From: Collimonas fungivorans Ter331 | GTDB lineage: Bacteria > Pseudomonadota > Gammaproteobacteria > Burkholderiales > Burkholderiaceae_D | Assembly: GCF_000221045.1 (NCBI RefSeq) | Contig: NC_015856.1 | Coordinates: 4,608,542-4,672,541 of the forward strand | Length of the DNA stretch: 64,000 nucleotides | Direction: 5' to 3' | Shown: positions 44,060-57,113 of the stretch, in pieces | How positions within the stretch are numbered: position 1 is the first letter of the stretch | Layout: each line of letters opens with the position of its first letter | The notes under the pieces: generated by a model | What the model was told of the DNA's origin: nothing | Databases searched by the model: none | Seen by the model: the letters and a program-made list of their open reading frames with translations, nothing else | Position numbers and translations under genes: made by a program

Positions 44060-44164
44060 TAAAAGAAAACCCGAACTGCGCTGTGGCGTCGGGTTTAAAT
44101 CCACTCCTGTGGAGGGGTGGAGGAGACATGGCGTTCGTTGCCGAAAATCAATCTTGCAACGATT
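44060..44164 (-). ncRNA. candidate small RNA with exposed anti-Shine-Dalgarno sequence
   Basis: This is a predicted minus-strand transcript of about 105 nt with its own promoter and terminator. The 5' hairpin is CGTTGC/GCAACG (44136-44141 with 44156-44161). A C-rich strand follows, GTCTCCTCCACC (complement of 44116-44127), containing CCUCC-type anti-Shine-Dalgarno sequence. Next comes an imperfect hairpin CCACCCCT...AGGAGTGG (44101-44120). The end is a terminator hairpin AAACCCGA/TCGGGTTT (44067-44096) with a TTTTCTTTT tail, typical of Hfq-dependent RNAs. Small RNAs with CCUCC anti-SD loops are known in Burkholderiales, including a toxic family, and this may be a member. No protein is encoded. 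It lies alone between rplM and the OsmC gene. Confidence 0.65.
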
Positions 44165-44170
44165 AGATTG

Positions 44171-44199
44171 ATCTTAGCAAACAGAATTGTGCATCGCAA
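44171..44199 (-). promoter_or_regulatory. promoter of the candidate small RNA
   Basis: On the minus strand TTGCGA (44194-44199) and TAAGAT (44171-44176) are separated by exactly 17 bases, placing transcription start near 44164, just before the first hairpin of the small RNA. Confidence 0.6.
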
Positions 44200-44295: not shown

Positions 44296-44775
44296 ATGAC
44301 GACACAATCACCACCCTCACGAGATCATATGGAATGCACTGTTCGCTGGACCGGCTCGTCCGGCATGACGTTTTTGGCAGAAACCGGCTCCGGCCACATT
44401 TTGACGATGGATGGCGCGCCGGACGGCGGCGGCCGCGACCTGGCGCCGCGGCCGATGGAAGTGGTGCTGGCCGGCACCGGCGGCTGCACCGCTTATGACG
44501 TGGTGCTGATCCTGCGCAAAAGCCGCCAGGATATCCGCGGCTGCGACGTCACGCTGAAATCGGAACGGGCCGAGACCGAGCCTAAGGTATTCACCAAGAT
44601 CCATTTCCACTTCACCGTACGCGGCCGCAACCTGAAACCCAACCTGGTGGAACGCGCGATCAAGCTGTCGCATGAAAAATACTGCTCGGCCTCGATCATG
44701 CTGGAAAAAACCGCGGTAATCACCCATTCCTTCGACATCGTCGACGACCTGGCGGAAACCGCAGTCGAAGCCTGA
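44296..44775 (+). CDS. OsmC/YhfA family protein
   Basis: OsmC-family proteins are cytoplasmic dimers; true OsmC and Ohr members reduce organic hydroperoxides through two cysteines. This 159-residue protein has both cysteine positions, C64 (GTGGCTAYDV) and C130 (HEKYCSASI). The pattern resembles the YhfA branch, whose function is less clear. The ATG at 44296 has no strong Shine-Dalgarno. A second in-frame ATG at 44329 (MECTVRW) aligns with shorter YhfA proteins and could be the real start. The gene is convergent with coq7, with a 123-bp repeat between them. Confidence 0.85.
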   Translation: MTTQSPPSRDHMECTVRWTGSSGMTFLAETGSGHILTMDGAPDGGGRDLAPRPMEVVLAGTGGCTAYDVVLILRKSRQDIRGCDVTLKSERAETEPKVFTKIHFHFTVRGRNLKPNLVERAIKLSHEKYCSASIMLEKTAVITHSFDIVDDLAETAVEA

Positions 44776-44905: not shown

Positions 44906-45532
44906 TCAGACGTAATAGGCGACTGTCGTCATCACTTTCGACATCGCCTGCATCACCTTCTGCACCGGACGCGGCATTTCAGCCGCCCCCAACGAGCGCG
45001 CCGCCGCGCCATGGGCGATTTCATCGTCGCGCATCTGCTCGACGATGGCGCGCGACTTGGCGTCCTGCAGCGGCAGTTGCTCCAGGTGGCTGCTGAGGTG
45101 CGCTTCAACCTGGCGCTCGGTTTCCGATACAAAACTCAGGCTGCGCACATCGCCCAAGCGCGCCGCCAGCGTTCCCAGCGCATAGGATCCGGCATACCAC
45201 AGCGGATTGAGCAAGCTGACGTGCGAACCCAGTTCGCGCAAGCGTTCTGCAGTCCAGGCCAGGTGGTCTTCCTCTTCCCTGCCCGCTGCGGCGAATTGCT
45301 GCTTGATCGGATCGCCCTGGGCGAAACGGCCCTGGGCGTCATACAGCGCCTGAGCGCAGACTTCACCGACATGGTTGACCCGCATCAGGCCGGCGCTGTG
45401 GCGCTGCTCGGCCGCATCCAGCACGCCGTCCGCCGCCAGCAGCGCCGGATTCGGGCGCGAAGCCGAAGCCTGTCCGGTGATCACCCGCAAGGCGTTGTCG
45501 AAATCGGCGATGACTCTGTCCAGGAATAGCAT
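44906..45532 (-). CDS. coq7: demethoxyubiquinone hydroxylase Coq7
   Basis: Coq7 is a membrane-associated carboxylate-bridged di-iron monooxygenase that hydroxylates the quinone ring late in ubiquinone synthesis. Counted from the ATG at 45532, the 208-residue protein has iron ligands in NHVGEVCAQ (E57), EEEDHLAW (E87 and H90) and the second repeat ([22 protein letters not shown]). The upstream in-frame opening to 45622 crosses into the DUF3025 gene and is rejected. It lies 49 bp after the DUF3025 gene on the same strand. Confidence 0.94.
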
Positions 45533-45581
45533 GTGAAGAATCGCTTTTAAAATGAAGTAAGTGGATTTTATCAGGCCGGCC

Positions 45582-46391
45582 TCATTTGCCGCGCTTTGGA
45601 CGAAACACCGCGGCATCGGCATAGAAGGCCTGGTCCTGGCCGCTGCTCCAGCCCGGCACGCCCAGTACCGGCAACGGCGTCAGGCGTCCGATCAGCGCAT
45701 CCGGCTGCGCCAGTTCGGCGGCAACGCGCTGGTCGATCCAGCCGCGCCTGGCTTCACCGGTCAACGCGAAATAGGATTCCGGCACGCCCAGCACCAGGGT
45801 GTGCGCCGTAATCGCCTTGTATGGCTGCACCAGTTTTTCCAGCAAGGCGTGGCCGAACAGCCAGACTTCGGCAGCGCCGCCAAACATGGGGCCTTGGTCG
45901 ACAAACACTTGCTGCCATTGGTGCTGGCGCAAGGCTGCGCTCAGCGACTGTCCCGCGGCGCTATCCGGCACCAGCAGCAAAGCGGCATTTTCATCAAAGA
46001 TGGTGGCGGCATCGCGCGCTGCGCCGCGCGGCTTGCTGCTGCCGGAGACGGTGCCGGCCTTGGCCAGTTCGGCCGCCTGCAGCGCGTTCAGGCGCGCCTT
46101 GATGGCCGGGAACGATAGCCAGATCAGGGCATTCAGGAAATCGTGCAGGTTGTCGCGGGTCGGTACTTTGCCGCTGCTGCCGACGAATGCTTCATAGGCG
46201 GTCGCCGGCGGCAATTCGGCCTGCGCCACAAAACTGACCGGCAAACCCTGATAATTGCGGATGCCGCGCTCCTCGGCAAGCGCATTCAAGGCCAGCCTCC
46301 AGTCGTCAACGGCGCTCAGGCGCTGGCCGAGAATACGGAACGGCTTGAGCCAGGGTTGTGACCAATCGATGAGGGCGGCGGGAGTAGGCAT
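45582..46391 (-). CDS. DUF3025 domain protein
   Basis: This 269-residue protein matches the DUF3025 family of unknown function. Recognisable segments are [15 protein letters not shown] near residue 46, [27 protein letters not shown] near 76-102, and [26 protein letters not shown] near 162. The [13 protein letters not shown] motif is the most conserved and has an enzyme-like look, but no reaction is known. No signal peptide or membrane segment is seen. It lies between cobA and coq7 on the same strand. Confidence 0.82.
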
Positions 46392-50570: not shown

Positions 50571-50626
50571 CTTGTGCAATGCACCAAACAAGTTCGCCGC
50601 GAGCGGGCATGCAGTTGACGGCTTGA

Positions 50627-54916: not shown

Positions 54917-55002
54917 ATTAAGTCCCCTCTATTACTCAAATCTCCATCGTTGCGCTGTCAGCCGGCAGGCGCCGATTGTGCAACGCAGCAATTCAATTTC
55001 AG

Positions 55003-56171: not shown

Positions 56172-57113
56172 TCAGTTGCCAACCTGGTCCGACGGAAAGC
56201 GCAACGACTCCCTGAAAAGATAGCCCATGGGCATGTTCAACACGAGATTATTTTTTGCCGGGATCGGACTCAGGAACCACTTGGTGTATAACTTGTTGAT
56301 CTCGCCATCGTGGATGATGCGCCCCATTTCACGGTCGACCACTGCCTTGTAGCTGGTATCGCCTTTCGGCAGCATGATAGCGTAAGGCTCGGTTGTCAAA
56401 GGCTCGCCGACAATGGCGTAGGCCGCAGGATCCTTGGCGGTAGCCTTCAGGCCGTACAGCAGCACGTCATCCATCACAAAAGCGTCAGCCGCCTTGTCTT
56501 CCACCATCTTGAACGATTCGTTGTGATCGCGTCCTTCCACTATGGTCATGTTCAGGGAACGGACCTGGCCACGGTCGACCAGCGATTTGACGCTGGTCGT
56601 GCCCTTGGTGGTCGCCACCTTCTTGTCGCGCAGGTCCGGCCAGTTCTTGATCTTGTCTTCCACCCGCACCAGCATGCGCGACGACGCCATGAAATGCGCA
56701 ATGGTGAAACTGACCTGCTTGCGCCGTTCTGCGTTGTTGGTGGTCGAGCCACATTCCAGGTCGATTTTTCCGCTTGCGATCATGTCAATGCGATTAGATG
56801 AAGTCACTGGAACATAGACGATATTCAATTGCGGCAGTTTCAATTGTTGCTTCACCGCATCGGCAATCTTGAGACACAGGTCGATGGCATAACCCACCGG
56901 TTTTTTATCCTGGTCCACAAACGAAAACGGGAACGACGCCTCCCGGTAACCGATCGTGATGGTCTTGCTGTCGCGGATCTTCGTCAGCACATCTTCCGCA
57001 TGAACAGCTGTTGCGGCGACGCCCAACGTTATCGCTAACACCATGCCCAGACCTGCATTGCACCACGCGGCCGCAATGCTTCCCTGGCCGCTCCTACCTT
57101 TCCCGATTCCCAC
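56172..57113 (-). CDS. glutamate/aspartate-type periplasmic binding protein (copy 2)
   Basis: This second SBP type 3 receptor is related to its downstream neighbour: GYREASFPFSFVDQD, GYAIDLCLKIA and DLECGSTTNNAERRK are parallel segments. A GTG at 57113 with a GGGGAG Shine-Dalgarno six bases upstream gives a 313-residue protein with a signal peptide (hydrophobic GLGMVLAITLGVAATAVHA, cut near residue 39). The in-frame opening runs to 57239, but that part is polar and lacks a signal. It may widen the substrate range of GltJKL or serve as a nitrogen-regulated variant. It lies between gdhA and gltI on the same strand. Confidence 0.88.
   Translation of the reverse strand: MGIGKGRSGQGSIAAAWCNAGLGMVLAITLGVAATAVHAEDVLTKIRDSKTITIGYREASFPFSFVDQDKKPVGYAIDLCLKIADAVKQQLKLPQLNIVYVPVTSSNRIDMIASGKIDLECGSTTNNAERRKQVSFTIAHFMASSRMLVRVEDKIKNWPDLRDKKVATTKGTTSVKSLVDRGQVRSLNMTIVEGRDHNESFKMVEDKAADAFVMDDVLLYGLKATAKDPAAYAIVGEPLTTEPYAIMLPKGDTSYKAVVDREMGRIIHDGEINKLYTKWFLSPIPAKNNLVLNMPMGYLFRESLRFPSDQVGN

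Follow-up and report, generated by a model that had tools for sequence, protein, structure and literature searches.

A candidate PhaR operator in the promoter of an RF02278 small RNA suggests a link between carbon storage and nutrient uptake in Collimonas fungivorans

By combining covariance searches, RNA folding and genome comparison, our analysis of a 64,000-nucleotide stretch of Collimonas fungivorans Ter331 (the window) describes a small RNA (sRNA) beside rplM whose promoter contains a conserved box of the type bound by PhaR (PhbF), the repressor that senses PHB, a plastic in which the cell stores carbon. We consider it probable that this sRNA, as the Collimonas counterpart of S17 and NcS27, forms the RNA arm of the PHB response, connected through PhaR and acting as a selective brake on uptake; as far as sequence can indicate, a cell whose carbon stores are full may induce an RNA that lowers nutrient uptake. 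The RF02278 family to which we assign the sRNA is already known, being widespread in Betaproteobacteria and noted for toxicity and for pairing with ribosome-binding sites, and it is the proposed control of the sRNA through a PhaR-type box that we consider new; this box, lying over the -35 element, was missing from the elements listed in the initial annotation of the locus. A link to PhaR would give RF02278 RNAs one concrete signal, the PHB state, would explain the presence of transport and catabolic genes among their reported targets and, if true, would add a post-transcriptional layer to the bioplastic metabolism of non-pathogenic producers such as Cupriavidus and Herbaspirillum.

The small RNA between rplM and osmC

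The sRNA is encoded on the minus strand, with rplM (ribosomal protein L13; 43368-43796, minus strand; Pfam PF00572) as its downstream neighbour, an osmC-like gene (44296-44775, plus strand; PF02566) as its divergent neighbour and coq7 (44906-45622, minus strand; PF03232) next in line. Its predicted sigma-70 type promoter (44171-44199) pairs TTGCGA (44199-44194) with TAAGAT (44176-44171) across 17 nt, stands at the same place in relatives, and is overlapped at the -35 by the candidate PhaR/PhbF-type operator TTGCGATGCACAA (44187-44199), likewise kept at that place. A 5' leader with a hairpin (44129-44165, predicted start near 44165) precedes the anti-Shine-Dalgarno (anti-SD) strand GTCTCCTCCACC (44116-44127), which corresponds to Site 1 of S17. 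Stem 1 (44100-44121; 44121-44117 with 44104-44100) and an intrinsic terminator (44061-44094; stem 44094-44089 with 44074-44069, then a T-rich tail) complete the minus-strand RNA, whose 3' end reads as a GC stem followed by TTTTCTTTT. The promoter, C-rich strand, second hairpin and GC stem with tail are thus read just as the initial annotation had them, and the 5' hairpin that it gave as 6 bp is present with 7 pairs in our fold (44162-44156 with 44141-44135). In line with its view that nothing here codes for protein, the overlapping frames in the ORF list are short only (34-48 aa), and we found nothing in their favour. We set aside a small ORF across the anti-SD strand; this 44-aa frame continues through the terminator, and the ORF of S17 is severed by processing.

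A covariance search, the check suggested with that annotation, matches the sRNA core (44061-44128, minus strand) to all 64 model positions of RF02278 (Betaproteobacteria toxic sRNA) with 53.5 bits, above the gathering cut-off of 50 (E 1.4e-9, 1.5 kb searched), and this is the sole gathering-level Rfam match across the window; anti-hemB, ncr952 and RAGATH-25 were rejected as identities, scoring far under their own gathering cut-offs. The 105-nt form folds at -32.6 kcal/mol (z -3.56, with 0 of 200 shuffles as good) and the 68-nt core at -22.4 kcal/mol (z -3.57, with 1 of 200), and both folds and alignment give the RF02278 architecture of two hairpins with an unpaired CU-rich 5' end, here starting UGUCUCC. 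In an alignment of 30 cores, including seven copies from this genome, both copy classes described below and three phasin-linked copies, 96.7% of the cells of an 11-pair structure are paired (under 48% in slid controls), with both-side, compensatory changes in 53 cells against 14.5 in shuffles; stem 1 is paired in 95.3% of cells and the terminator stem in 97.8%, with both-side changes at 3 of 5 and 3 of 6 pairs, respectively. We conclude that the sRNA is almost certainly a member of RF02278 and the counterpart of S17/NcS27, which bears out its earlier, tentative placing in a family reported as toxic when cloned in E. coli, the growth inhibition by these relatives being described as the source of the family name. 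Sequence, fold and conservation likewise support the proposal of an sRNA of about 105 nt with its own promoter, terminator and exposed anti-SD strand. The motif GTCTCCTCC is nearly invariant across alignment A1, but is not rare alone (one occurrence in the window against 0.22 expected, and at least one in 20 of 100 shuffles), so that the case rests on the combination of elements and its conservation. A generic consensus scan listed neither the sRNA promoter (8 of 12 hexamer positions by hand count, limit 9) nor the terminator, probably because its loop exceeds the limit of 8, and here too the case therefore rests on conservation.

The sRNA is not the orphan it was first taken for: nine RF02278 copies are found in the Collimonas genome, eight of them over the cut-off, and 39 of 40 family-level genomes contain the family, with 1 to 19 copies each among the matches listed. 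Combining sRNA places with rplM places and then reading the regions upstream of rplM, we find the sRNA just upstream of rplM, on the same strand, in 20 of the 40, accompanied by osmC in 20/20 and coq7 in 18/20; none was seen in the rplM upstream regions of the other 20. Together with a leader hairpin that is kept as a fold, this agrees with the expectation that the C-rich strand and flanking hairpins would be conserved in relatives. A wider search of genome contigs with the pattern GTCTCCTCCAN{6,30}GTGGATT returned at least 118 stretches, of which 89 copies, betaproteobacterial by record title, were used and 29 others set aside (the PhaR-type box occurs in 1 of these 29). Within 3 kb of the 89 lie osmC (65 copies), coq7 (49) or rplM (28), at least one of them in 70, and the coq7-osmC-[sRNA]-rplM neighbourhood recurs from Burkholderiales to Rhodocyclales. 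The sRNA core is nearly identical in Collimonas sp. OK412 (L167).

These copies fall into two classes, which parallel the long forms (S17, NcS27) and the short forms already described in print: those at the rplM/osmC place mostly have a hairpin-first leader, and in the others a -10 element directly precedes the core. Most boxed copies have a -10-like hexamer 25-27 nt after the TGC. Our leader statistics are confined to the 66 copies that combine a TTGCN3GCA box with a -10-like hexamer, of which 61 have leaders of 24-124 nt. In 60 of the 61, pairing sets in no more than 8 nt from the predicted start; the median z is -1.4, and 40 leaders have a z below -1. It is the fold that is conserved, the leader sequence being unconserved. 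The class in which the core directly follows the -10 has a different conserved promoter, with a box near the -10 in some (L025, L026, L030). By eye, an element like ATAnCTGATAT precedes a TTGG-type -35 by about 10-15 nt in many short copies among L001-L039; it may be what the Burkholderia paper calls the 'common upstream motif'. Three copies in the Collimonas genome (L002, L003, L009) lie within about 4 kb (G000:C1:1642577-1646602), one of them with a degenerate anti-SD strand (GTCTTCTAC); another (L001, G000:C1:2780556) is followed after about 220 nt by a gene that lies on its strand and, by eye, resembles those of sugar-binding proteins.

The PhaR-type box across genomes

Upstream of the aligned copies, two blocks are conserved: the -10 and TTGC-N3-GCA-C-(A/C)A, the latter overlapping the -35. 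The region protected by Herbaspirillum seropedicae PhbF, a PhaR, is reported to contain TG[N]TGC[N]3GCAA (PMC3206438), the reverse complement of which is TTGC[N]3GCA[N]CA, and Ralstonia eutropha PhaR sites are reported to give the consensus YTKNTGCRNYGCANMAR (PMC12849132). A motif scan of the window places a match to the 12-nt TGCRNYGCANMA core in the sRNA promoter at 44187-44198; the left arm and last base of the 17-nt R. eutropha consensus do not match, and in a whole-consensus scan of the sRNA upstream region the window box is not the best site (best score 10/14). When gapped trimer pairs with gaps of 0-12 were enumerated in the 150 nt upstream of the 89 betaproteobacterial copies, TGCNNNGCA ranked first, in 65/89 against 41/534 control windows. 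TGC-N3-GCA lies within 200 nt of 67/89 copies (598/5397 control windows) and the longer box upstream of 49/89 (31/7472 windows). The R-N-Y centre, which follows from the R. eutropha PhaR consensus and played no part in site selection, is more frequent among sites upstream of the sRNA (74 of 88) than in the background (87 of 404; p 2e-28); in the Oxalobacteraceae set 19 of 20 copies have a site, and all 21 sites have this centre. The 22 of 89 copies without TGCN3GCA within 200 nt include those of Burkholderia s.s. (L098, L151), all three of Thiobacillus (L112, L125, L163) and one, L173, with just 24 nt upstream.

In the Collimonas genome at large, TTGCNNNGCACMA occurs at 73 sites, compared with 23 for the reversed pattern, and 41 of the 53 site records examined (at least one double-counted) fall inside long ORFs, which makes a bare motif scan a poor predictor of the regulon. 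Four intergenic or start-proximal PhaR-type boxes (L246, L279, L281, L285) neighbour, by eye, an ECF sigma-factor-like gene, a GlxA-type regulator, an IclR-type regulator and a short unknown gene. The window contains nine TGCRNYGCANMA matches against 4.4 expected; gene names being assigned by eye, that at 50572-50586 lies between response-regulator-like and nitrate-type binding-protein genes, that at 54976-54990 is flanked by a binding-protein gene and an amino-acid ABC permease-like gene, and that at 57054-57065 is close to where a glutamate-type binding-protein gene begins.

A single phaR gene is present in the Collimonas genome (G000:C1:2098155-2098475; 150 bits, TIGR01848), and PhaR is found in 39 of 40 family-level genomes, the exception (G006) also having no RF02278 match. 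Across 150 order-level genomes, RF02278 occurs in 98 and PhaR in 106 (both in 75, sRNA alone in 23, PhaR alone in 31, neither in 21), a weak co-occurrence (odds ratio 2.2, p 0.04) that led us to reject strict coupling across the order. Since 23 of the 98 sRNA genomes lack PhaR and co-occurrence is weak, PhaR control is not the only mode of the family, and genomes without PhaR retain the sRNA under other control. The box follows PhaR far more closely. Taking one best match per genome among the matches listed, for 38 of the 75 genomes with PhaR (chosen from the better-scoring matches listed, with Oxalobacteraceae excluded, and not at random) and 22 of the 23 without it (G188 left out), we find TGCRNYGCA within 200 nt upstream in 28/38 against 0/22 (p 7e-9), and the looser TGCN3GCA in 28/38 against 5/22 (p 2e-4). 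Counted by family, with the box in at least one genome, the split is 15/18 against 0/11 (p 1e-5), where two families stand on both sides and the counts ignore phylogeny. In a smaller test on 40 of the 89 named genomes, which may overlap the genomes of the family- and order-level sets (L055 and L149 look like one genome), the box accompanies 25 of 35 copies with PhaR and 1 of 5 without (p 0.04), the exception being a 1.1-Mb Polynucleobacter MAG (L146). Genomes without PhaR (L318-L337, L373, L374) keep the RNA, often with GTCTCCTCCATCCTCC, and in three of them TTGCAAAGCAAAT or TTGCATAGCAAAT stands some 72 nt upstream, where another regulator may bind.

The family also appears beside phaR itself. 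In at least 7 of the 150 order-level genomes, an RF02278-like match (32-40 bits, under the gathering score) lies 0.26-1.1 kb from phaR, and in six of these the RNA is downstream of a phasin gene that is divergent from phaR, with 0, 0, 0, 17, 66 and 33 nt between phasin stop and match (L311-L316). All six proteins exceed the Pfam Phasin_2 cut-off (L313 barely, at 25.1 against 24.9), and a PhaR-type box precedes the phasin gene in four (L313-L316); in L311 and L312, the form of box searched for is absent from the stretch that separates phaR and the sRNA. The seventh genome (L317) has boxes about 65 and 120 nt upstream of the RNA. These RNAs retain GTCTCCTCC, a hairpin and a terminator, and we read the phasin arrangement as a 3'-UTR-derived form presumably released by cleavage. 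The arrangement is known to us from two families only, and a tblastn search (E 1e-4) found no phasin near the betaproteobacterial loci L001-L197. The Collimonas genome has a phasin gene with two TTGCRNYGCACAA boxes upstream.

Taken at this promoter, the evidence makes it quite probable, on grounds of sequence, that PhaR controls this copy of the sRNA. The reading that survives next best keeps a selective, S17-like RF02278 sRNA but has the TGC-N3-GCA box read by another regulator, or in part arising as a by-product of the -35 element. It would accommodate the absence of the box from 10 of the 38 PhaR genomes and from both Burkholderia s.s. copies, as well as the report that S17 is highest in Bvg+ mode, for which a repressor was postulated (PMC11722255). 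A -35 element, however, leaves unexplained the conserved GCA half-site 3 nt downstream, the R-N-Y centre, the Rhodocyclales copies in which the box lies, by eye, upstream of the -35, the absence of the box from 22 of 22 PhaR-less genomes and the phasin/phaR neighbourhood, and we regard this reading as unlikely.

Proposed circuit and predicted targets

We propose that PhaR sits on the box and blocks transcription of the sRNA when PHB is absent, and that under carbon excess PHB granules would titrate PhaR, allowing the sRNA to be made. The position of the box over the -35 suggests such repression, lifted when PHB is present; because R. eutropha PhaR is reported to activate as well (PMC12849132), this sign of control is one that we infer. 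The leader, which our fold shows together with a single-stranded junction, would presumably be clipped by RNase E as in S17, to a form of about 68 nt that would act probably with Hfq. Its CU-rich 5' end would pair with purine-rich, GGAGGAGA-type ribosome-binding sites of selected mRNAs and stop their translation. The targets would belong mostly to nutrient uptake and catabolism, and uptake would go down once stores are full. In some Burkholderiales, the family member on the 3' end of the phasin gene beside phaR would be made together with phasin.

On the output side, GGAGGAGAN{2,10}ATG has 12 matches in the Collimonas genome against one for the reversed control, and six of the 12 are real gene starts with the 8-nt site GGAGGAGA before ATG: those of a D-serine-dehydratase-domain protein, a Peripla_BP_6 binding protein, a sugar-type (Peripla_BP_4) binding protein, UrtA (alone among the six over its NCBIfam cut-off), a BON-domain protein and CstA. 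Four of the six are transport genes (p 0.003-0.02 under an assumed transport background of 12-20%), and these predicted targets fit a selective brake on uptake, not a general stop. The list is small, and strong SDs are to be expected on well-expressed transport genes anyway, a point against this explanation; we still judge an uptake brake the likely main output. Another candidate target site, GTGGAGGA placed 3-12 nt before ATG, was rejected, its 18 matches (4 for the reversed control) including no convincing gene start. Three of the 18 fall in one thrice-repeated stretch (L261, L273, L276), 16S rRNA by eye, where the motif complements 8 nt of the sRNA, probably incidentally.

The initial annotation had instead raised a toxic RNA acting on translation as a whole, which it would repress through titration of Shine-Dalgarno sequences or ribosomes. 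In favour of this reading are the anti-SD strand, a family named for growth inhibition in E. coli and the reported slowing of planktonic growth by over-expressed NcS27. Against it, published relatives affect subsets of mRNAs: S17 is described as leaving exponential growth of E. coli BL21 unimpaired, with modest impairment on entry into stationary phase and a changed gene subset (PMC11722255), and a review describes NcS27 as slowing growth on some substrates and not on others. In addition, few perfect sites stand at real gene starts in the Collimonas genome, GGAGGAGA at the six named above, and up to 19 copies are kept per genome among the matches listed. Global repression is very improbable in our judgement. 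That this copy is silent or decaying, with the other eight doing the work, is scarcely credible: its promoter hexamers are weak and the sRNA is missing at the rplM place in 20 of 40 family-level genomes, but the Collimonas relative L167 and the same-genus genome L040 both retain the box, the -10, the leader fold, the core and the terminator.

Relation to known systems

The closest parallel to the sRNA is Bordetella S17, whose core is homologous to the family according to its authors, which adjoins coq7, as here, whose leader is clipped to a short stable form and whose sigma-A promoter has TTGCAT as its -35 (PMC11722255). Site 1 of S17 is reported to pair with ribosome-binding sites and to repress a sigma-54 activator through its 5' UTR, with compensatory changes as support; the affected genes include transporters, and when S17 is deleted 91 or 92 genes go up (the paper gives both figures), many with ties to transport (PMC11722255). 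Considering the TTGCAT -35 together with the boxes found in Bordetella genomosp. 2 and 12 (L138, L184), PhaR is, by inference from sequence only, a candidate for the postulated repressor of the S17 promoter. In Burkholderia cenocepacia, NcS27/bdhR1, ncS03, ncS05 and ncS62 are described as RF02278 double-hairpin RNAs with short and long copies that affect carbon-source use and growth (PMC5688073, PMC4603805, PMC10987360); unlike in Collimonas, the Burkholderia s.s. copies at the rplM/osmC place have no box.

PhbF/PhaR is described as a repressor acting near the -35/-10 of phasin genes and as binding PHB granules (PMC3206438, PMC12849132), with a regulon, as far as set out there, of protein genes only, the term 'sRNA' being absent from PMC12849132. 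Precedent for PhaR wired over an sRNA comes from Sinorhizobium, where MmgR is reported to be repressed by AniA/PhaR as part of the PHB response, from a promoter with a PhaR-type box on a fragment tested by EMSA (PMC12542648, PMC8401924, PMC9049629); MmgR is alphaproteobacterial and lowers phasins. The PHA reviews PMC9049629 and PMC8401924, in the parts that bear on sRNAs, name MmgR as the PhaR-linked sRNA and none in Betaproteobacteria. A term search of PMC11722255, PMC5688073 and PMC7011215 returned no mention of PhaR or phasin, and PHB in a reference title at most; among the titles and abstract openings listed, a scope outside which Kimelman 2012 and the 2019 NcS27 paper fall, none joined RF02278, S17 or NcS27 with PhaR or phasin.

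We lean, with some reserve, towards a broader reading in which an old betaproteobacterial circuit senses PHB: PhaR would leave DNA for the granules, SD-blocking sRNAs would be released, whether transcribed from a PhaR-box promoter of their own or derived from the 3' end of a phasin message, and uptake would be lowered, so that the 'toxic sRNA' would be a carbon-satiety signal, PhaR would be a candidate S17 repressor, and the same logic would have arisen or survived in Alphaproteobacteria as MmgR. In Herbaspirillum seropedicae, taken to belong to the same bacterial family as Collimonas, the RF02278 RNAs Hsnc059, Hsnc063, Hsnc086 and Hsnc107 are reported among 117 sRNA transcripts (PMC7011215).
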